64,000 nt of DNA from Parapedobacter defluvii (GTDB lineage Bacteria; Bacteroidota; Bacteroidia; Sphingobacteriales; Sphingobacteriaceae). Below, piece after piece: positions 84-9,199 of the stretch. Under the pieces are notes generated by a model that did not search any database, was not told the DNA's origin, and saw only the letters and a program-made list of their open reading frames with translations. A program made the position numbers and the translations under genes. The first letter of the stretch is position 1, and every line of letters starts with the position of its first letter. The stretch spans positions 1-64,000 of the forward strand of contig NZ_BMIK01000012.1 of the NCBI RefSeq assembly GCF_014642075.1, in the 5' to 3' direction.

Positions 84-2900
84 AACAACCAGCTTGCAAA
101 GCGGAAAGGCTTCATAAGTGTTTCATCGTTAACTGACATTCTTGCCAAGAAGTTGTTAAATATTGGAGTAAATCCTGGTGGTCCAAAAGCATCTTTACTA
201 AAAAGTCAATACGGACATAATTGGTTTGAGGAATATGTTTTTGATGACGGAGAAGTTCAATTCAAATGTAAAGAGGATGACGAATTACATGGGAAGATAA
301 AAAGTTCTTTACAATCTGAAATATTATCCAGTCTATTCTCAGGTCGAAATAGATCCCTTGAAGCATTGGGCATCGGCTATGTTGTGGCAGATATTAGCGA
401 TTATAAAAGTTATCCTAAAGAATTTATACAAAACAGTATTAGAATATTGGGAGAGTGTGGAAGGATTTATGGGAAATATGAGAATGAACAATCTTCTATT
501 CCTGAAGGACTATGGAAATACTGGCGAAAATGTTATGGTTTCGGGCGATATCGTTCAAATGGATTAAAGGATAATTTTGAAGAAATCTTGCTCGAAAATC
601 GCCTAATAAAAAGTCAGGATGATATTCGACTTACTGGGTATGGATTGAAACTAAAGTATTACAACAGCGGTGATCCAATTTACGAATGTAGTGTGTGCGG
701 TAATATACAATTGGTTAATTTCAAGAATATATGTACACATTGTTGTAATGAAGCGGTTGAAGAAAGAAACTATGGGGAGCTATCAGAACAATTAGAAAAT
801 AACTATTACCGGTATAATGCAGGCCTGCTGAAAGGTAATCCCACTCGTTTGCACTGTGAAGAGCTTACCGGACAAACAGGTGCTGCGGAAGCCAGCACAC
901 GTCAAAGAAGATTTCAAAGCCGGTTTTTGAAAGACGAAAATAATCTTGTGGAGGAAATTGATTTGCTGAATGTGACCACAACAATGGAAGCTGGCGTTGA
1001 CATTGGTTCGTTAATGGCAGTGATGTTGGGCAATGTCCCTCCTCAACGGTTCAATTATCAGCAGCGGGTTGGACGTGCGGGAAGAAGGAATGCGTCGTTA
1101 TCCATTGCATTAACGATAGCCAAGGGAAATTCGCATGATCAAGCACATTATAACCAGTCTTTTCGGATGGTGTCTGCAACCCCAACCGACCCTTATCTCG
1201 AAATGGGCCAAATAGACATCATGCTGCGTTTTGTTTATAAGGAAATATTCCACCAAAGTCTAAAGGGTAAAGATATCGGCGGATCGGACGTACATGGTGC
1301 TTTTGGCAATGTGGAAGATTGGCCATCAAGACGCTCCCTCATAGAGGGGTTTATTGAGGACGAGAGTGCTATCTGCGAAATCATCGATGCCTTTAAAACG
1401 GAAACAAGAATCTCCCTTAGTACAAAAGAGATTTATCAAAGGCGGGTTAAAAATGAGTTTCTAGTCAAAGTTGACAGAGTAGTTAAAGATGATACGTCGT
1501 ATCCGCAAAATGAATTAGGAGAACGACTTGCAAATGCTGGTTTGTTTCCTATGTTCGGTTTTCCGACGCAAGTGAGAACATTATACGAAGAAAAGCCAAA
1601 CAGAAATAACAATAATACGATTCAACGAGAATTGGATTTGGCAATTTCCGAATTTGCCCCAGGGAGTGAGATTGTAAAAGATAAAAAAGTGTTGACTGCG
1701 GTTGGGGTACTTGGCTATAAAATAGAAAAAGGACGCTATGTTGAGGTAGATGGTAGAGGGAATTTAAGATCATTAAACAGGTGTATGAATTGTAAAACAG
1801 TTTATACTGAACCTGTTGACGATACATGTAAAGTGTGCGACTCAAGCGATATTGAAGCATTTGAAGCAATTGCTCCAATAGGTTTCTATATTGAGAAAGA
1901 TAGGGAGCCTCGTGATTTCGACGGTAGATTTGAATTTAATAACCGTGCAGGAGAAGTTACTCTGGATCCTAATTCAAAACTGGAGACCACAAGAGAAATT
2001 AGAAATTTGGTAATAAAATCAAATGCTGATCCTGAAAGTGGAATCGTGCATATGGTCAATGATAATGGAGGTGAGCTATTCTCGATGGGTAATTTGGAAG
2101 GTAGCAAGGCCTGGGTCGTAAAAGACCTTTTGAAAGAGAAGAATAGACGGGTTATTGGTCAAGGGGAATACGCATTTATTTCATCTAAACACACAGGCGT
2201 TATTACTCTTTCTTTAAAAGGTGTCGACAAAAACAAATATGAATTCAAGTCTGGAGACATATATCAGCAAGCTGCGTTCTTGTCATGGGGCTACTTGATT
2301 CGTAAGGCGATATGCAGTATCTTAGATATTGAAACCAATGAATTTGATATCGGATATCGGATTTCGCCTGAAACGAAATTCCATGAAATTTATATGGTTG
2401 AGAGGGCTGTGAACGGCGCGGGTTATTGCTCTTACCTTAATGGTAAAGAAGATGAAAATATCGCAGCAGAAGTTTTTATCAGTCAGCTAATTCAAAATGG
2501 GGCCGATAATAATCTGTACTCTTTCTTATTAAACAGTAATCACAAAGATTGCACTTCCTCATGCTATGACTGTTTGAGGGATTATTATAATCAGAAGTAT
2601 CATAATTTGTTGAACTGGCGATTGGCATTAGACTTAGCGGGTTTGGCTAATGATGAACGTTTTGAATTGAATTTTAGGCAAGAATATTGGCAAAATTTTT
2701 TTAATGGGGATTTGAGAACTATATTGAAAAATAAGGATAATTATACTTTGGAAGAGGATAATGGGGTTTTCTATTTGAATTCAGATGTTCGCCGGACATT
2801 GATTGCTCATCCGTTTTGGAGCGAGTCTTTTATTGAAAGGATTTTGAAATCAAGTGGAGCTGATGTCGACAGTAAATATATCAATGACATTATTTCTTAG
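84..2900 (+). CDS. DUF1998-type superfamily 2 helicase, C-terminal part (5' end broken or outside window)
   Basis: C-terminal part of a large helicase. Counting from the TTG at 153, it shows a CxxC zinc pair region (about residues 179-198), helicase-C motif V (TTTMEAGVDIGSL, about 275) and motif VI (QQRVGRAGRR, about 303), a second zinc ribbon (CMNC and CKVC, about 544-562), and a terminal CTSSCYDCL segment (about 800) typical of the DUF1998 family (DruE, DrmB, MrfA-like). Walker A and the DExH box are absent, so the N-terminal RecA domain must lie upstream. The frame is open from 84, before the TTG, and reads like protein there (SLTDILAKK, then NPGGPKA). A different frame is open from base 2 to about 134, which suggests a frameshift at the left edge. 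Codons are clearly richer in A+T than in the core genes. Likely anti-phage or DNA repair; the exact system is not identifiable from this fragment. Confidence 0.75.
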   Translation, partial: NNQLAKRKGFISVSSLTDILAKKLLNIGVNPGGPKASLLKSQYGHNWFEEYVFDDGEVQFKCKEDDELHGKIKSSLQSEILSSLFSGRNRSLEALGIGYVVADISDYKSYPKEFIQNSIRILGECGRIYGKYENEQSSIPEGLWKYWRKCYGFGRYRSNGLKDNFEEILLENRLIKSQDDIRLTGYGLKLKYYNSGDPIYECSVCGNIQLVNFKNICTHCCNEAVEERNYGELSEQLENNYYRYNAGLLKGNPTRLHCEELTGQTGAAEASTRQRRFQSRFLKDENNLVEEIDLLNVTTTMEAGVDIGSLMAVMLGNVPPQRFNYQQRVGRAGRRNASLSIALTIAKGNSHDQAHYNQSFRMVSATPTDPYLEMGQIDIMLRFVYKEIFHQSLKGKDIGGSDVHGAFGNVEDWPSRRSLIEGFIEDESAICEIIDAFKTETRISLSTKEIYQRRVKNEFLVKVDRVVKDDTSYPQNELGERLANAGLFPMFGFPTQVRTLYEEKPNRNNNNTIQRELDLAISEFAPGSEIVKDKKVLTAVGVLGYKIEKGRYVEVDGRGNLRSLNRCMNCKTVYTEPVDDTCKVCDSSDIEAFEAIAPIGFYIEKDREPRDFDGRFEFNNRAGEVTLDPNSKLETTREIRNLVIKSNADPESGIVHMVNDNGGELFSMGNLEGSKAWVVKDLLKEKNRRVIGQGEYAFISSKHTGVITLSLKGVDKNKYEFKSGDIYQQAAFLSWGYLIRKAICSILDIETNEFDIGYRISPETKFHEIYMVERAVNGAGYCSYLNGKEDENIAAEVFISQLIQNGADNNLYSFLLNSNHKDCTSSCYDCLRDYYNQKYHNLLNWRLALDLAGLANDERFELNFRQEYWQNFFNGDLRTILKNKDNYTLEEDNGVFYLNSDVRRTLIAHPFWSESFIERILKSSGADVDSKYINDIIS

Positions 2901-2918
2901 TTAAAAAACGATTACAAA

Positions 2919-4259
2919 ATGCCCGAAACCAATCGCATAGAATACAAACGCGAGCCCCATACCGATGTGGATATTGAAAAGGAGGTAATCGCCTTTTTGA
3001 ATTACTACGAAGGCGGTGTGATTTATATCGGTGTTGACAAGACAGGTAACGTAATTGGTGTCGCGGATGCGGACGGTGATGCGCTAAAGATCAAAGACCG
3101 TATCAAAAACAATATTTCCCCATCGGCCATGGGCTTATTTGATGTGGTGGTTGAGGAGCGCGAGGGTAAGGAAATTGTCAAAATCACTGTGGCCAGTGGC
3201 AGTGAAAAGCCGTACTTCAAAAAGAAATATGGGATGACCGAGAAAGGTTGCTTCATCCGTATCGGTACAGCAGTGGAGCCAATGCCGCAGGGTATGATTG
3301 ATAAACTGTTCTCCACCCGTCCCCGTAATCCCATTGGCAAAATCCGATCGAACCGTCAGGACTTGACCTTTGAGCAGCTTCGTATTTATTATGAGGAAAA
3401 GCGCAAGCCGCTCAACAATCAATTTAAAAAGAGCTTGGAGTTACTCACTGAAGATGGTACGCTCAATTATGCAGCTTATCTGTTGGCTGATGAAAACGGT
3501 GTTTCCATCAAAGTAGCGAAATATCGCGGTACGAACCGGGTAGACCTCATTGAAAACAATGAATACGGCTATTGCTCGCTTATCAAAGCCACGAAAAGCG
3601 TATTGGATAAAATTGAATTGGAAAACCGGACGGCGACTCAAATCACGTCCAAAGAACGGATAGACCGCAGGCTTTGGAATCCGGTGGCCATCCGCGAGGC
3701 CGTGATAAATTCGATTGTGCATAACGACTTTACCCGAGAGGTGCCACCCAAATTCGAGCTATTTGCCGATCGTATCGAAATTACTTCCGCAGGTACATTG
3801 CCGGAGAACCTCAATGAAGATGATTTTTTTGATGGTGTTTCTATCCCAAGGAATCGGGAACTGATGCGGGTGTATCGGGATCTGGAATTGGTGGAACAGC
3901 TTGGTTCTGGCGTGCCACGGATTTTGGAAAGTTATGGAAAGGAATGCTTCCGGTTTATGGGTAACTTTATCCGGATGACGTTTCCGGCATCGGAGTCGGT
4001 CACCCCCCAAGTCACCCCCCAAGTCACCCCCCAAGTCACCCCCCAAGTAGAGCGATTGTTGGCGGTATTTACGGGAGAGCACAACAGGCAGGAATTGCAG
4101 GACTTTATTGGGTTATCAGATAGAAAAAATTTCCGGGAGAATTATTTGAATCCGGCCATTCAAGCGGGGCTTGTAGAATTGGTCGACCCTAATAATCCGA
4201 CAAGCAGCAAGCAGCGTTACGTATTGACGGCGTTGGGAAAGCGGATAGTAAGTCAGTGA
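2919..4259 (+). CDS. AlbA_2/Schlafen-type ATP-binding regulator
   Basis: 446 aa protein starting 18 bp after the helicase stop. Residues 1-125 match the AlbA_2 (divergent AAA_4, Schlafen-like) fold: IEYKRE near the start, then GGVIYIGVD. Residues 250-350 match a GHKL-type ATPase module: the N-box-like EAVINSIVHNDF at about 259, DRIEITSAG, then SIPRNREL and EQLGSGVPRI. A repeated TPQV linker (361-376) leads to a C-terminal winged-helix-like domain (380-446) of the kind attached to Fic-related proteins. Such proteins are usually called ATP-binding or putative transcriptional regulators and are common in accessory islands. Its position between a helicase and a Fic-fusion gene suggests a regulatory or sensor role in the same operon; this is inference. 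Confidence 0.85.
   Translation: MPETNRIEYKREPHTDVDIEKEVIAFLNYYEGGVIYIGVDKTGNVIGVADADGDALKIKDRIKNNISPSAMGLFDVVVEEREGKEIVKITVASGSEKPYFKKKYGMTEKGCFIRIGTAVEPMPQGMIDKLFSTRPRNPIGKIRSNRQDLTFEQLRIYYEEKRKPLNNQFKKSLELLTEDGTLNYAAYLLADENGVSIKVAKYRGTNRVDLIENNEYGYCSLIKATKSVLDKIELENRTATQITSKERIDRRLWNPVAIREAVINSIVHNDFTREVPPKFELFADRIEITSAGTLPENLNEDDFFDGVSIPRNRELMRVYRDLELVEQLGSGVPRILESYGKECFRFMGNFIRMTFPASESVTPQVTPQVTPQVTPQVERLLAVFTGEHNRQELQDFIGLSDRKNFRENYLNPAIQAGLVELVDPNNPTSSKQRYVLTALGKRIVSQ
3999..4046 (+). repeat. 12-bp in-frame minisatellite (4 units)
   Basis: Four identical consecutive copies of gtcaccccccaa inside the ATP-binding regulator gene, encoding the repeated VTPQ linker. Each unit contains a run of six C. 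Gain or loss of whole units keeps the frame and changes linker length. Slippage within a C6 run would break the frame before the winged-helix domain. Confidence 0.95.
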
Positions 4260-4275
4260 GCTAAGCGAATAGGAA

Positions 4276-5247
4276 ATGAAAAGCCAAATCGAAATATACC
4301 AAGCCAGCGATGGCCAAACGCAGATTGAAGTAACGTTCGAGAAAGATACTGTGTGGCTTACACAAAAAATGATGGCTACCCTTTTCCAGACTACCGTTCC
4401 AAATATTAATATGCATATTAAGAATGTCTATGAGGAGAAAGAATTAGCCGAAGCGGCAACTATTAAGGATTTCTTAATAGTTCGAAAAGAAGGACAACGG
4501 GAGGTTAGGCGGAATCAGAAATTCTATAACCTTGATGTCATCATTTCCATTGGATATCGTATTAAATCACAGGTAGCTACGAGATTCCGCCAATGGGCTA
4601 CCCAACGTTTAAAAGATTACCTTGTGCAGGGTTACGCCATCAACAAAAAACGTTTGGCACAGAAGCAGCAGGAGGTGCAAACGCTGAAAGACGGCATTCG
4701 TATCTTAAGCCGGGCCATCGAAGGCAAAATAGGGGATGCGGGCTTGGAGTGGTTGAACCAATTTGCCAGCGGGTTGGAACTGCTGGATGACTATGACCAC
4801 GAACAATTGGATGCCAAAGGTGCGACCAAACGCCCGGCCGTTTATCCTGAAATGGACGATTACCAACAGGTTATCGATACGATGAAAGCGGATTTCGAAT
4901 CTGCCGTGTTTGGTAAGCAGAAGGATGGCAGCTTCCAAAGTGCCATCGCACAGATAGCCAAAGGTTTCGGAGACGAGGATTTCTACCCGTCTATTGAAGA
5001 AAAAGCGGCCACGTTGCTCTACCTCATTGTAAAAAACCACGGTTTTGTAGATGGCAATAAGCGCATTGCCGCGACCTGTTTCCTGCTGTTTCTGGAAAAA
5101 AACGGATTGCTGTATACAAAGGACGGGCAGACAATCATTAGCAACGAGGCGTTAGCCAGCCTCACACTGTTTATAGCGGCAAGTAAACCTGAGGAGATGG
5201 AAACAGTAAAAAAATTGGTTATCAGTGTGCTGAATAGAAATCAATAG
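4276..5247 (+). CDS. RhuM-family protein fused to Doc-like Fic domain
   Basis: 323 aa protein, 16 bp after the previous gene. Residues 10-115 are the virulence-RhuM domain (VWLTQKMMATLF, then RNQKFYNLDVIISIGYRI and RFRQWATQ). Residues 118-145 form a charged, probably coiled segment. The rest is a Fic/Doc fold with the active loop HGFVDGNKR at 255-263. The NKR ending is the Doc form rather than the GNGR form of AMP-transferring Fic proteins; Doc phosphorylates EF-Tu, so kinase-type chemistry is possible here (inference). No inhibitory (S/T)xxxE(G/N) motif was seen in the protein. The RhuM half looks more A+T-rich than the Fic half, as if the gene were a mosaic. Confidence 0.85.
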   Translation: MKSQIEIYQASDGQTQIEVTFEKDTVWLTQKMMATLFQTTVPNINMHIKNVYEEKELAEAATIKDFLIVRKEGQREVRRNQKFYNLDVIISIGYRIKSQVATRFRQWATQRLKDYLVQGYAINKKRLAQKQQEVQTLKDGIRILSRAIEGKIGDAGLEWLNQFASGLELLDDYDHEQLDAKGATKRPAVYPEMDDYQQVIDTMKADFESAVFGKQKDGSFQSAIAQIAKGFGDEDFYPSIEEKAATLLYLIVKNHGFVDGNKRIAATCFLLFLEKNGLLYTKDGQTIISNEALASLTLFIAASKPEEMETVKKLVISVLNRNQ

Positions 5248-5251
5248 CGAT

Positions 5252-5611
5252 ATGGAAGAAATGGAAGATGAGTTGGAATACTACGAAATGCTCAACCGTG
5301 ATGCGATTGTGGTGAAGCCGAAGAAACCGCTTTTCGATTGGGCAAACAGTCTGACACCCGATGAAGATCCGGTGCCGGAGTCGAAAAGAGGGAAAATTTA
5401 CCTTATTAAGGAGAAGGATACGGAAGAAGCCGTGGATCGTTGGCTCCGCAGGAATTTCGACAGGATTTTCACGGCCGAGCTAGCCGATTGGTGGCTGGAT
5501 GAAAACGACTGGCCGGAGAAGCGGACGTTCAAGCTTTTTAAGGAATGGTTCGATTACGAAATAGACCAGTTGGTGCTGGATATGGAATCGGAAGATATTT
5601 TGAAGGATTGA
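5252..5611 (+). CDS. Conserved acidic hypothetical protein
   Basis: 119 aa acidic protein beginning 4 bp after the RhuM-Fic stop, so probably translated from the same message. No signal peptide or membrane segment. It is rich in Trp, Asp and Glu (WLRRNFDRIF, then LADWWLDENDWP), with alternating charged helices. I believe similar small proteins occur across Bacteroidota, but I know of no function. It is acidic and small enough to be a binding partner or antitoxin, but nothing in the sequence proves that. Confidence 0.7.
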   Translation: MEEMEDELEYYEMLNRDAIVVKPKKPLFDWANSLTPDEDPVPESKRGKIYLIKEKDTEEAVDRWLRRNFDRIFTAELADWWLDENDWPEKRTFKLFKEWFDYEIDQLVLDMESEDILKD

Positions 5612-5650
5612 CCGTGGAAGAGTTTTATATAGCATCATTTATGAGTGTAG

Positions 5651-7237
5651 ATGGAATTATCATATGTTAGTAAAGAGTGGTTTCTCGCACGGAAACCATA
5701 TCACAGGCTCACGGCATACGACCAGTTTTACCTGAAAATCTGCCGCGACCTTTATCGCATCATCCGAAGGGCGATCGGCAACCATGAGTCCAGCAATTCG
5801 GAAAGCCGCGAACTGGCCTACCGGATTACTGCCTATTTTGAAGACGTGGTAAATGGTATCGGCTTCTGGGAAGTGGTGGTGGGCCATTTCAAAAACGTAT
5901 ATGGCAAACGCATTCCCTTCTTCAGCAAAGTGCAACTCGATGAGTGGGAAGAGGATTATGAGGATATCAATCCCGCAGATATCCACTTCTTGATCTACCA
6001 GCATTTTGCCGTGCTTCACCGCGAAAATTATAAGGTGTCCTATGTCGATGTGCTTTGCATAGACATGCTTCGCGAGGAAATCGTGGATTACCTCGATGCC
6101 ATTGAAGAAGTGAAGCTCACGGATTTCTACAGCACTTTTTTGCAGGTGCCCGATGATTTTTTCGAACTGAAGGATGTGCTTAGCTGGCTGGTTTACGAGA
6201 GTTATCTTTTTGGAAACGAGTTTTCAGCCCGGCTCATTGATTTTGAAGAGAAGTTACTTGAGGAGGCCGATCCATCCATGTTGGAACGCATCAATATGCT
6301 TCGGTATGCCGAAAAGGATCGCCTGATGTTTACCGTCCCATCCGCCCTTGGCGCGCTGCACCCGTTGGATATATGGGCTGGGGCACTTAAGGATAAGCCA
6401 AGCGATAGGGCATTGCTGCTTGGTTTGAAAGAACAGGTCTACGGGGTGTTCGAAATAGAAAACGAAACGGATACGCATTACCAGTTTCGGCATACGTATA
6501 CCCACGAGCGCTATGCGGTAGCTAAATCATCCTTCGGCAGCCCTTATGACGCCAAATACGCACAAACCAAGCTTGTTAATTTCAGGGGGGAGTATTTGAT
6601 AACCGGTTTGATTTTCGAACCATTCGATTTCTCCAAGCCCGTGGATATTTCCGCCTATAATGAGCGGTATCAATACCCCTTCCTCAGGCACCATGGAGGC
6701 TTCCGCCAAAAGCTTGCCGAAACCCTGAAACAGCAATACCATACGGCCGTGGAGTTTTTTGGCACGCCGTGGAATGTATTCCCGAGCAAAAAGATATTTG
6801 CCGAGCGTATGGATGCCTTTCTTAAGTGGCAGTATCAACGCGCAAAAGAGGAAAATGATGAGCTCAACGATGAGCCGGGAAGCTTTCCCATGCCAGACGA
6901 TACGGAAGAGTCTACCGTGCTTTACTTTGTGTCGGACGACTGGACGGTGGAGGTCATCTATTCCCCGGAAGAGATGGATGAATGTGTAGCGGGGTTCAAG
7001 ACAGTTTATGAGTATTTCTATAGTGATTTACTTACCCGTGGATTTGCCACTACGCGGCTGCTCCGATACATATTCAAACATAGGCGTATTCATCAACCAC
7101 AGCGCAACGGGGCAGATTTCGGGTGGCTGGACGATATCATTGATTTTGAAGCTTTACTGCATATTTATTTTCCGGAAGAATTTTCCACCTACCTGCCGCC
7201 AAGGATGACGGTAAAGGGGTTTGAGGTGCATCGATAA
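5651..7237 (+). CDS. Hypothetical protein, possibly DUF3843-like
   Basis: 528 aa soluble protein, 39 bp after the 119-aa gene. No signal peptide, membrane helix or catalytic motif that I can name. The N-terminus (AYDQFYLKICRDLY, then AYRITAYFEDVV) resembles what I recall of the DUF3843 family of Bacteroidota proteins, but I cannot confirm this. A stretch of Asp/Glu (about residues 400-420) separates a C-terminal region of about 110 aa. Tight spacing with both neighbours suggests one operon. Function unknown. Confidence 0.65.
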   Translation: MELSYVSKEWFLARKPYHRLTAYDQFYLKICRDLYRIIRRAIGNHESSNSESRELAYRITAYFEDVVNGIGFWEVVVGHFKNVYGKRIPFFSKVQLDEWEEDYEDINPADIHFLIYQHFAVLHRENYKVSYVDVLCIDMLREEIVDYLDAIEEVKLTDFYSTFLQVPDDFFELKDVLSWLVYESYLFGNEFSARLIDFEEKLLEEADPSMLERINMLRYAEKDRLMFTVPSALGALHPLDIWAGALKDKPSDRALLLGLKEQVYGVFEIENETDTHYQFRHTYTHERYAVAKSSFGSPYDAKYAQTKLVNFRGEYLITGLIFEPFDFSKPVDISAYNERYQYPFLRHHGGFRQKLAETLKQQYHTAVEFFGTPWNVFPSKKIFAERMDAFLKWQYQRAKEENDELNDEPGSFPMPDDTEESTVLYFVSDDWTVEVIYSPEEMDECVAGFKTVYEYFYSDLLTRGFATTRLLRYIFKHRRIHQPQRNGADFGWLDDIIDFEALLHIYFPEEFSTYLPPRMTVKGFEVHR

Positions 7238-7248
7238 ATTACTCGCTT

Positions 7249-7764
7249 ATGTCTTTTACCACCGTAAAGAAAGAATTGAACAAGCTTGACAAGGCCAAGC
7301 TCATTGCCCTAATGGGAGATTTGTATAAGAAGCACAAAAATGTGCAGGAGTATCTCGACCATTTCGCTAATCCGGATGAGGATGCGTTGTTTGAAAAATA
7401 TAAAGAGCGGGTTATCCAGGCATTCTTTCCGTTAAGGGGATGGGATTATGATTTGCGAAAAGGTAAGCAGGCCATTTCCGATTTCAGGAAGTTGGAGCCG
7501 TTACCGTGGCAACTGGCGGATTTGATGTTGGTCTATGTGGAAACGGGAGTTGAATTTACCAATCAATTTGGCGATATCAATGAAACGTTCTACAATAGCT
7601 TGGAAAGCGTTTACCATCAAACGTTGAAGCTGCTCAAAAAAGAACGGCTGTTGCCGAAATTTGAGAAGCGACTGCGTAAAGTGTTGACCGATACGAGTGA
7701 TATGGGGTGGGGCTTTCACGACACGCTGTCTGATTATTTCTTTGAGTATTTCGATGAAGCTTGA
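7249..7764 (+). CDS. Hypothetical protein, DUF6155-like
   Basis: 171 aa, all-helical-looking soluble protein, 11 bp after the 528-aa gene. The N-terminus (VKKELNKLDKAKLIALMGDLY, then KNVQEYLDHFANP) resembles the DUF6155 family, whose members begin with a short Leu/Lys-rich helical pair. No enzymatic motif is visible. It is probably the last gene of the unit that starts at or before the helicase; 110 bp and a new promoter follow. Function unknown. Confidence 0.7.
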   Translation: MSFTTVKKELNKLDKAKLIALMGDLYKKHKNVQEYLDHFANPDEDALFEKYKERVIQAFFPLRGWDYDLRKGKQAISDFRKLEPLPWQLADLMLVYVETGVEFTNQFGDINETFYNSLESVYHQTLKLLKKERLLPKFEKRLRKVLTDTSDMGWGFHDTLSDYFFEYFDEA

Positions 7765-7802
7765 CAAAAGATGTTCCATACCCTCACGTTGTCCAGCAGT
7801 AG

Positions 7803-7875
7803 TGAGCCGAATAAAACTTGTAATCGGCTCAATTTATATTTATATTTGAGCCGATTAAGAAATGCAATCGGCTCA
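7803..7875 (+). promoter_or_regulatory. Twin-palindrome operator around the Fic promoter
   Basis: Two inverted repeats with identical geometry (10-bp arm, 9-bp spacer, 10-bp arm): 7803-7812 with 7822-7831, and 7847-7856 with 7866-7875. The arms are TGAGCCGATT and its complement; only the first arm deviates, by one base. Equivalent arms lie exactly 44 bp apart. A Bacteroidota promoter sits inside: TTG at 7818-7820, 20 bp, TATATTTG at 7841-7848. Palindrome 1 covers the -33 side, and palindrome 2 covers the -7 box, the likely start of transcription and the A of the Fic start codon. Binding would therefore block both transcription and initiation. Confidence 0.85.
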
Positions 7876-8984
7876 TGGTGTATAATTGGCAACTACAGGG
7901 ATGGCCTGACTTTACTTACGACGTCACGGAAGTGCAGCCGTCTATTCTTGCATTTGCGCAGGAAACGGGGGAAGTCAATGGCCTTATCCAGGGATTGCCG
8001 GATACGCTCAAGCAAGAGACACTGCTCCAGCTCATGCTTTCGGAAGCGGTGAAAACCTCCGAGATCGAGGGAGAGTACCTAAGCCGCGAGGACGTGATGT
8101 CCTCCATCCGGAATAATTTGGGCTTAAATGATACGCCTGTTTTTGTAAAAGACCAGCGGGCATCGGGCGTAGCCCAATTGATGGTGGCAGTAAGGAAAGA
8201 CTTTCGGGAACCGCTTACACCGGATATGCTAAAAGCGTGGCACCGATTACTTTTTGCGGGCACTACAAGCCGTGTCAATCCGGGCGAGTGGCGGCAGGGA
8301 GATGCCCCCATGCAGGTGATTTCCGGTGCTTATGGGCGCGAAATCATCCATTACGAAGCACCACCATCGCTGCGGGTACCGGAGGAGATGGAACGCTTTG
8401 TAGGGTGGTACAATTCAGCGACGTTCTCACGACACGGACAAGTGCCCGAGGCCATACTGAAGTCGGCAATCGCTCACCTGTATTTCGAATCCATCCATCC
8501 GTTTGAAGACGGTAACGGGCGCATCGGACGGGCGATAGCGGAGAAAGCACTTTCGCAATCGCTTGGCCGTCCTGTCATGCTGAGTTTATCCAAAACCATC
8601 GAGGCCAATAAGAAAGCCTATTACGATGCGTTGAAGGAAGCACAGCGCGGGTTAGACATTACAGCATGGATGGTTTATTTTGCAAGCGTGATCCTAGATG
8701 CACAGCGCGATGCCAAAGCCATGGTGCTATTTACGTTGAAGAAGGCGCAGTTTTGTGATCGGTATAAAACCCAGCTTGACGAGCGGCAATGGAAGGCCAT
8801 CAACAAAATGCTGGATAAAGGAACCGAGGGTTTTGAAGGCGGGATGACAGCCAAAAAGTATATGGGCATTACCAAGGTTTCCAAAGCCACAGCTACGCGC
8901 GATTTGCAGCAATTACATGAGATGGGTGTGCTGGTGCAGGAAGGGGCGGGGCGTTCCGTGCGTTATCAGTTGAACCTACCATAG
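7875..8984 (+). CDS. Fic family protein with winged-helix C-terminus
   Basis: 369 aa. N-terminal DUF4172-type region, then the class II inhibitory motif SEIEG (about 62-66), then the complete Fic active loop HPFEDGNGR (208-216), which normally transfers AMP to a target hydroxyl. The C-terminal 80 residues look like a winged helix (TAKKYMGITKVSKATATRDL, then VLVQEGAGRSVRYQL), so the protein may bind DNA. The start is the ATG directly at the edge of the second palindrome; the predicted transcript leader is only about 20 nt. Both the inhibitory Glu and the catalytic His are present, so an autoinhibited active enzyme is expected. Autoregulation through the palindromes is inference. Confidence 0.9.
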   Translation: MVYNWQLQGWPDFTYDVTEVQPSILAFAQETGEVNGLIQGLPDTLKQETLLQLMLSEAVKTSEIEGEYLSREDVMSSIRNNLGLNDTPVFVKDQRASGVAQLMVAVRKDFREPLTPDMLKAWHRLLFAGTTSRVNPGEWRQGDAPMQVISGAYGREIIHYEAPPSLRVPEEMERFVGWYNSATFSRHGQVPEAILKSAIAHLYFESIHPFEDGNGRIGRAIAEKALSQSLGRPVMLSLSKTIEANKKAYYDALKEAQRGLDITAWMVYFASVILDAQRDAKAMVLFTLKKAQFCDRYKTQLDERQWKAINKMLDKGTEGFEGGMTAKKYMGITKVSKATATRDLQQLHEMGVLVQEGAGRSVRYQLNLP

Positions 8985-9199
8985 CCATTTGGCTCCCGTT
9001 TGTACCTTATTCCATTAAATCATTATAAATCAATACAAATTACATATTGCATCGGGAAAATAATGCGTGTCTCAAAAGTTCAATGGCTGCGATCGGGGTT
9101 GTTATTCGTAAAAGTATATCGGCCATTCCTGCGATGATCATTGCCATTGAAAATTAAAATGTTCAATGAAAACGTTCCGGCACAGTGAAGCGAGGCATA

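Follow-up and report, generated by a model that had tools for sequence, protein, structure and literature searches.

Twin palindromes before a winged-helix fic gene in Parapedobacter defluvii as a candidate self-repression operator

The twin palindromes and the gene they precede

A fic gene of Parapedobacter defluvii, found in the stretch of DNA analysed here (the window; 64,000 nucleotides at the start of contig NZ_BMIK01000012.1), is preceded by two palindromes of the same build, and its product appears to end in a DNA-binding domain. The locus therefore raises the question of which protein reads the palindromes, and whether the Fic protein could be regulating its own synthesis. The features that bear on this question are the following.

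7803..7831, no strand: palindrome 1 (P1), 10-9-10, TGAGCCGAAT-N9-AATCGGCTCA, putative distal operator
7818..7820, + strand: TTG read as the -33 element, within the 9-nt spacer of P1; weakly supported
7841..7848, + strand: TATATTTG, -7 element, whose last two bases are the first two bases of P2
7847..7875, no strand: palindrome 2 (P2), 10-9-10, TGAGCCGATT-N9-AATCGGCTCA, putative proximal operator whose last base is the A of the start codon
7875..8984, + strand: fic gene, 369 aa, with DUF4172, Fic domain and C-terminal winged helix
8055..8072, + strand: class II inhibitory motif TSEIEG, residues 61-66, from the sequence (motif class according to the available part of PMC10628234)
8496..8531, + strand: Fic active-site motif HPFEDGNGRIGR, residues 208-219, intact, from the sequence
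8850..8921, + strand: helix-turn-helix, with a helix at 326-333, a turn and the recognition helix at 337-349, by DSSP on the AlphaFold2 model
8931..8972, + strand: wing, with strands at residues 353-356 and 363-366, by DSSP on the AlphaFold2 model

P1 and P2 are 29 bp each and start 44 bp apart. When the 10-9-10 pattern was searched for in the 64-kb window with up to 3 mismatches allowed, four matches were obtained (the two sites, each on both strands), compared to a mean of 0.03 per 64 kb and a largest value of 1 in 100 dinucleotide shuffles. Both palindromes were thus located at the positions given in the initial annotation, 44 bp apart and far above the shuffled background. Across the whole 5.8-Mb genome no further place lay within 2 mismatches of the palindrome, and all matches within 3 mismatches other than P1 and P2 carried exactly 3. 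The two sites had been described as having identical arms and spacing. The 10-9-10 build is indeed the same in both, but one base of the P1 left arm differs, and the arms are therefore nearly, not fully, identical. P2 does end on the first base of the start codon, as had been proposed, since position 7875 is the A of the ATG.

The -7 consensus of Bacteroidota promoters is TAnnTTTG, and we take TATATTTG at 7841-7848 to be a -7 element of this type. The palindromes were earlier thought to enclose the -33 and -7 boxes; the -33-like TTG in fact lies inside the P1 spacer, and the -7 box overlaps P2. A sigma-70 scan recovered the -33/-7 pair, but promoter-like sites occurred at chance level (3, against a shuffle mean of 2.0). 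The putative core promoter is a consensus reading, and its -33 element is weakly supported.

Pfam analysis of the Fic protein identified DUF4172 (1.6e-24) and Fic (3.2e-18) domains, and DIP2311-like_C scored 24.1 at the C-terminus, below the cut-off of 27. The AlphaFold2 model had a mean pLDDT of 93.4, and its secondary structure, together with a fold match to 8cil, bore out the suggestion that the protein has a winged-helix domain of its own. Residues T61, S62, I64 and E65 of the inhibitory motif were invariant among 34 homologues, as were H208 to R216 and R219 of the active-site motif.

Genes upstream of fic include the following.

153-2900: open reading frame with Helicase_C
2919-4259: Schlafen AlbA_2 protein with a Fic-like_C domain
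4276-5247: RhuM-Fic/Doc fusion matching PADLOC candidate PDC-S23 (8.8e-128)

The fusion gene is followed by DUF3843 and DUF6155 genes and then by fic, and the neighbourhood from 153 to 8984 is of a defence type.

Conservation of the sites, arm classes and the recognition helix

The initial annotation had suggested a search for the palindrome before homologous fic genes. Homologues were taken from the best 80 of 551 relatives in named records and from genomes of the window's family; 8 of 127 proteins were shorter than 340 aa and were dropped, which left 119 rows in the operator-class set. The search found the palindromes in several phyla, and in most cases neither the spacing nor the end at the start codon differed: according to the records, 10-9-10 palindromes precede homologues in Bacteroidota, Nitrospirota, Verrucomicrobiota, Acidobacteriota and Proteobacteria. 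Using regular expressions on 130 bp upstream, the arms were assigned to classes A (TGAGCCGA), A2 (TGAGGC), A3 (TGGACCGA), B (TGAGYTAT) and C (TGCGGAGA and variants); after reading, two rows were set by hand to C (L145, L148) and one to A3 (L051), and L073, L089 and L149 were set aside. Site pairs were sought at spacings of 40-50 bp, and within this range all 41 class A pairs and all 32 class B pairs had a spacing of 44 or 45 bp, with no pair obtained from 13 of 54 class A rows and 6 of 38 class B rows. In 32 of the 41 resolved class A pairs and 31 of the 32 resolved class B pairs, the last base of P2 was the A of the start codon. Outside Bacteroidota, class A sites were found, by record titles, in metagenome-assembled genomes only, where a contig may be misplaced and the host is therefore less sure. 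Class B palindromes occur in named isolates of two phyla, as Alphaproteobacteria and Bacteroidota. Two loci (L197 of genome G079 and L212 of G488) have three palindromes, not two, at steps of about 44 bp before fic.

We built a tree of the 119 proteins from their first 285 residues, a region that excludes the helix-turn-helix. The class labels required 7 changes on this tree, with three unassigned rows counted as their own label and a minimum possible of 5; label shuffles on the same tree required a mean of 54.7 changes, and none of 200 was as low as 7. For the 116 assigned rows, operator class required 4 changes as against 15 for host group, host labels being typed by hand from record titles and family-genome rows set to Bacteroidota. 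B arms are found with Bacteroidota proteins of clade B (L079, L104 and L114), and A arms with clade A proteins whose records name Gammaproteobacteria, Nitrospirota and Verrucomicrobiota. Where class A and class C paralogues are present in one genome, their arms differed in 8 of 9 genomes, the ninth being masked by N (the class A site of G124 was taken from the palindrome scan of family genomes). Class C paralogues (L135-L154 and the class C rows in L216-L252) show TGCGGAGA-type half-sites with variants such as TGCRACGA, and their layout differs, often with more half-sites located farther upstream.

The promoter elements were distributed differently from the arms. Among the resolved class A pairs of Bacteroidota, including the window, TAnnTTTG abutted P2 in 28 of 33, and a TTG was present in the P1 spacer in only 8 of 33; TAnnTTTG also abutted P2 in both of the two class B pairs from Bacteroidota. 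In the 25 alphaproteobacterial class B pairs, a Shine-Dalgarno-like motif was seen in the P2 spacer of 22 and the P1 spacer of none, and TTGAC was present in the P1 spacer of 12. The arms thus track the protein, and the promoter parts track the host. Since promoter elements are kept between and within the sites in both host groups, these counts suggest that a spacing of 44/45 bp suits a core promoter so placed.

The recognition helix of the model begins with residue 337. This residue is K in all 54 class A proteins, R in all 3 A2 proteins and N in A3. K337 was seen in none of 38 class B and 1 of 20 class C proteins, that is, in 1 of 62 proteins outside class A, and the exception is L145 (class C), whose array of C-type sites includes a TGAGCCGAAT half-site as well. 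A second sample of 46 proteins, from which L210, L222 and L231 were excluded as repeats and to which G217 (L253) was added, contained eight proteins of clade A, five with K337 and TGAGCCGA and three with R337 and TGAGGC. A one-residue code in which K337 specifies TGAGCCGA holds in clade A and breaks in class C, and was rejected. TGC(A/G)ACGA-type arms accompany K337 in four class C proteins, L227 and L228 have a GAGCCGA string upstream yet lack K337, and a sign test of K337 against TGAGCCGA gave p 0.25 with only 3 independent pairs.

Every protein column, with none preselected, was scanned for association with arm changes. The scan drew on 127 of 165 proteins, which gave 63 phylogenetically independent pairs, and included a correction for overall identity. 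The 38 rows dropped had either no called half-site (29) or a half-site that did not start with TG (9), and the dropped rows L217, L242 and L243 may hold real sites. Residues 328, 337 and 338 ranked 1-3 of 310, followed at ranks 4-5 by residues 70 and 80 outside the helix-turn-helix, with p values per column uncorrected and a single pairing used (50 repeat pairings were identical). None of 5000 permutations placed all of the top three inside 324-349. Six of the 25 counted arm changes consisted only of TGAGCTAT/TGAGTTAT, a degenerate pair, and the association between arms and helix is weaker once these are merged: residues 328, 337 and 338 then hold ranks 1, 2 and 4, and residue 202 takes rank 3. 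Of 5000 permutations, 58 then equal the observed two of the top three, and 7 the observed three of the top four. As the arms track both the clade and residues of the helix-turn-helix, and the arms of paralogues differ, the winged helix of the Fic protein itself appears to be the likeliest reader of the palindromes.

Palindromes without fic, and other readings of the sites

If the sites belong to fic, their occurrence elsewhere has to be accounted for. Of 300 genomes of the family, 110 carried the palindrome (up to 2 mismatches) and 52 a close Fic match, including two with internal stops (G071 and G110); a Fic homologue at E 1e-40 was present in 100. Palindrome and close Fic match were found together in 47 genomes, Fic only in 5, the palindrome only in 63 and neither in 185, a strong association (odds ratio 27.6, Fisher p 8.6e-19, kinship of genomes being ignored).

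We read 27 of the 63 loci at which the palindrome stood as an orphan (12 of L006-L034, together with L115-L127, L130 and L131). A tblastn search at E 0.01 of 26 of these (L014 excepted) detected fic fragments in six (L023, L029, L125, L127, L130 and L131), that of L029 being weak at E 0.002, and a degraded fic start was recognised by eye in L024 and L118. Eleven of the 27 adjoin a DUF1905/OmdA gene (L027, L028, L032, L117-L119, L121-L124 and L126); there the palindrome is often accompanied by one further half-site, and its spacer is unlike that of the fic promoter. The other flank, where read, is a DNA-polymerase-III-alpha-like or a 2H gene, identified by Pfam in L117 only and, for 2H, by tblastn in L028, L119, L121 and L123. 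Because L021, L022 and L030 keep a fic gene next to DUF1905, the orphans at this place probably derive from a fic gene that has been lost. The first 30 genomes of genus g3 contained 29 DUF1905 loci, 16 of them with dnaE, 2H or fic upstream, and these 16 comprised 3 with full-length fic, 6 with a palindrome (2 imperfect; G049 counted from the family genome scan), 2 with a half-site (1 imperfect) and 5 with none. In view of the fic fragments and this decay series, most of the orphan palindromes that we read look like remains of lost fic genes. We rejected the orphan sites as a second regulon, since 18 of the 27 either look like fic remains or lie at the DUF1905 place with its decay series. Beside a TamB gene (identified by Pfam) in the window's own genus, G685 has a full-length fic, G143 an inner-arm remnant and G157 a fic fragment.

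Nine of the 27 were not explained as remains (L008, L013, L014, L015, L016, L026, L115, L116 and L120). In L014 a class C Fic is present, and the palindrome is located 40 bp downstream of it. At L116 (about 1826-2497) a palindrome and a partial second one are directly upstream of a free-standing 2H gene, with its ATG about 25 bp away, and no fic was found at this place. Related free-standing 2H genes adjoin fic or fic remains elsewhere, one of them matching the 2'-5' RNA ligase family, and two Fic proteins (L025 and L133) have a C-terminal 2H-phosphoesterase-like extension. As a speculation, AMPylated targets might be the substrates of such a phosphoesterase, whether fused or coupled.

The orphans also raise the question whether some other transcription factor of the host recognises the palindromes, with fic as one of several target genes, as a palindrome without a close Fic match in 63 of 300 genomes, and 11 of 27 orphan loci beside one kind of gene, DUF1905, could suggest. 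However, the genome of P. defluvii itself has only the two fic sites, arm class tracks the Fic clade and differs between paralogues of one genome, and at the 16 DUF1905 loci the 3 that keep full-length fic and the decay series formed by the rest are what remains would give. We consider such a factor very unlikely. Translational control by P2, folded in the RNA as a hairpin over the start codon, with P1 as a by-product, is less probable again. RNA beginning at 7847 does fold into a 10-bp stem (-14.9 kcal/mol, z -2.6), but transcription presumably starts a few bases after the -7 box, which would leave most of the P2 left arm untranscribed, and RNA beginning at 7855 shows no unusual fold (z +1.4). 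Moreover, P1 is upstream of the -7 box and nevertheless has nearly the arms of P2, and the two change together by clade.

Least probable of all, in our estimate, is that fic forms a mobile cassette with the palindromes as its recombination or insertion ends, or that P1 is the terminator of the upstream gene. When the window was compared to L254-L257 (16-17-kb regions from four genomes of two other genera, 76-87% identity, with unrelated flanks), the main match ran only from 7800/7804 to 8980/8984, which is the palindromes with fic, as expected of a cassette, and L255 carries two truncated copies in addition. Yet G685, from the same genus, has fic at the same locus with homology that extends past both ends (7658-9059), and in L255 the copies have the appearance of decayed local duplications. 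Five T in the eight bases after P1 would suit a terminator, a side role that P1 may have; the terminator scan covered loops of 3-8 only and so gives no judgement on a 9-nt loop. Neither cassette ends nor a terminator explain the position of P2 at the start codon or the co-divergence of arms and helix. We rejected both the terminator and the hairpin as explanations of the palindromes.

A self-repression model and its relation to known Fic systems

Sequence comparison makes it highly probable, in our judgement, that the palindromes are a private fic operator, read by the winged helix of the Fic protein for negative feedback. The idea of a self-repressing circuit, advanced as plausible in the initial annotation, gains from conservation of the sites, co-divergence of arms, clade and helix, the differing arms of paralogues, and the precedent of CccR. 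A Fic dimer would bind each palindrome, each of its winged helices contacting one 10-bp arm. With both palindromes occupied, the -7 box, the transcription start and the region of the start codon would be covered and RNA polymerase blocked, which would hold a potentially toxic AMP-transferase at a low steady level. Repression rather than activation is what we infer from the position of the sites and from CccR. If DNA-bound dimers favour the deAMPylating state, as CbFic2 does in vitro, any drop in the amount of bound Fic would increase transcription as well as activity; this dependence on the state of Fic is inferred from the CbFic2 work. In its defence-type neighbourhood, the protein probably serves as a SoFic-like, single-gene enzyme of defence or growth control.

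The operator could, in addition, act as an antitoxin, which we regard as unlikely: Fic dimers on the palindromes would be repressors and at the same time be held harmless in the deAMPylating state. Were this DNA lost, for instance through degradation or shutdown of the host chromosome by a phage, monomeric, AMPylating Fic would at once be freed and the promoter opened. If true, fic and its operator would constitute a one-gene, DNA-guarded abortive-infection module across several phyla. A related idea is raised for CccR, as speculation, in the available part of PMC10628234.

The comparison indicates that the C-terminal domain of a large DUF4172-Fic group may be a sequence-specific DNA reader, and it supplies probable cognate sites. 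The CbFic2 study, in its available part, leaves the specificity of DNA binding open (PMC10628234), and the Sofic study, likewise in its available part, leaves open how toxicity is checked before infection (PMC12249575). Both questions can be tested directly in vitro with the operator classes and recognition helices that occur together in nature. A text search of the literature for the four arm 10-mers returned, among the matches listed, unrelated subjects only.

Phd-Doc type II toxin-antitoxin systems combine a Fic-fold toxin with a palindromic, autoregulated operator bound by the antitoxin. Unlike Phd-Doc, where the antitoxin is a separate DNA binder, the window Fic would have DNA-binding domain, inhibitory helix and catalytic domain in one protein. 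SoFic appears to be its nearest defence family: the PADLOC SoFic profile matched residues 15-363 at E 1.1e-50, but the NCBIfam SoFic equivalog scored 57.2 against a cut-off of 550 bits. The anti-phage SoFic/EcSofic resembles the window Fic in being a class II Fic that forms dimers, in having its toxicity controlled by a C-terminal domain and in its defence-type neighbourhood, and the terms helix-turn-helix and HTH are absent from the main text of that study as available (PMC12249575). EcSofic has a small antitoxin gene, AS1, downstream (PMC12249575, available part); around the gap between the window fic and the next gene, the open reading frames on both strands were only of 23-48 aa.

CbFic2 of Coxiella burnetii (8cil) has the same order of domains, DUF4172-Fic-winged helix. 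In the available part of PMC10628234, CbFic2 is described as binding DNA mainly via its winged helix; the assays used random DNA, with nanomolar affinity, and a specific site is only discussed. In vitro, DNA favours the dimer, stimulates deAMPylation and suppresses auto-AMPylation (same part of PMC10628234). The 8cil structure was the best structural match to the window Fic (TMq 0.86, 34% identity) and the best PDB sequence match (8e-65).

Chain 7xux, which we take to be CccR, matched residues 159-273 of the window Fic (E 2.8e-5, TM about 0.52), and CccR is a remote homologue. In literature on Fic autoregulation outside subscription papers and preprints, no demonstrated self-regulating Fic other than CccR was found among the matches listed. 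According to the available part of PMC9755527, CccR of Yersinia pseudotuberculosis is secreted by a T6SS, AMPylates FtsZ, and is a footprinted autorepressor that binds inverted repeats near its own -35/-10 boxes and requires dimerisation. Like CccR as described there (PMC9755527), the window Fic combines a class II Fic domain with a C-terminal DNA-binding domain and has inverted repeats at its own promoter. Three features taken to mark a CccR-type protein were found: class II motifs, a C-terminal winged helix-turn-helix, and inverted repeats over the predicted core promoter. The CccR footprint, however, is one inverted repeat of 10 bp-N26-10 bp (PMC9755527, available part), whereas the window has two 10-9-10 palindromes ending at the start codon, and the layout is therefore a variant one. 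In kind, the system thus appears to be a known one, a self-repressing Fic with a DNA-binding domain, and what appears new is a different and widely conserved operator layout.
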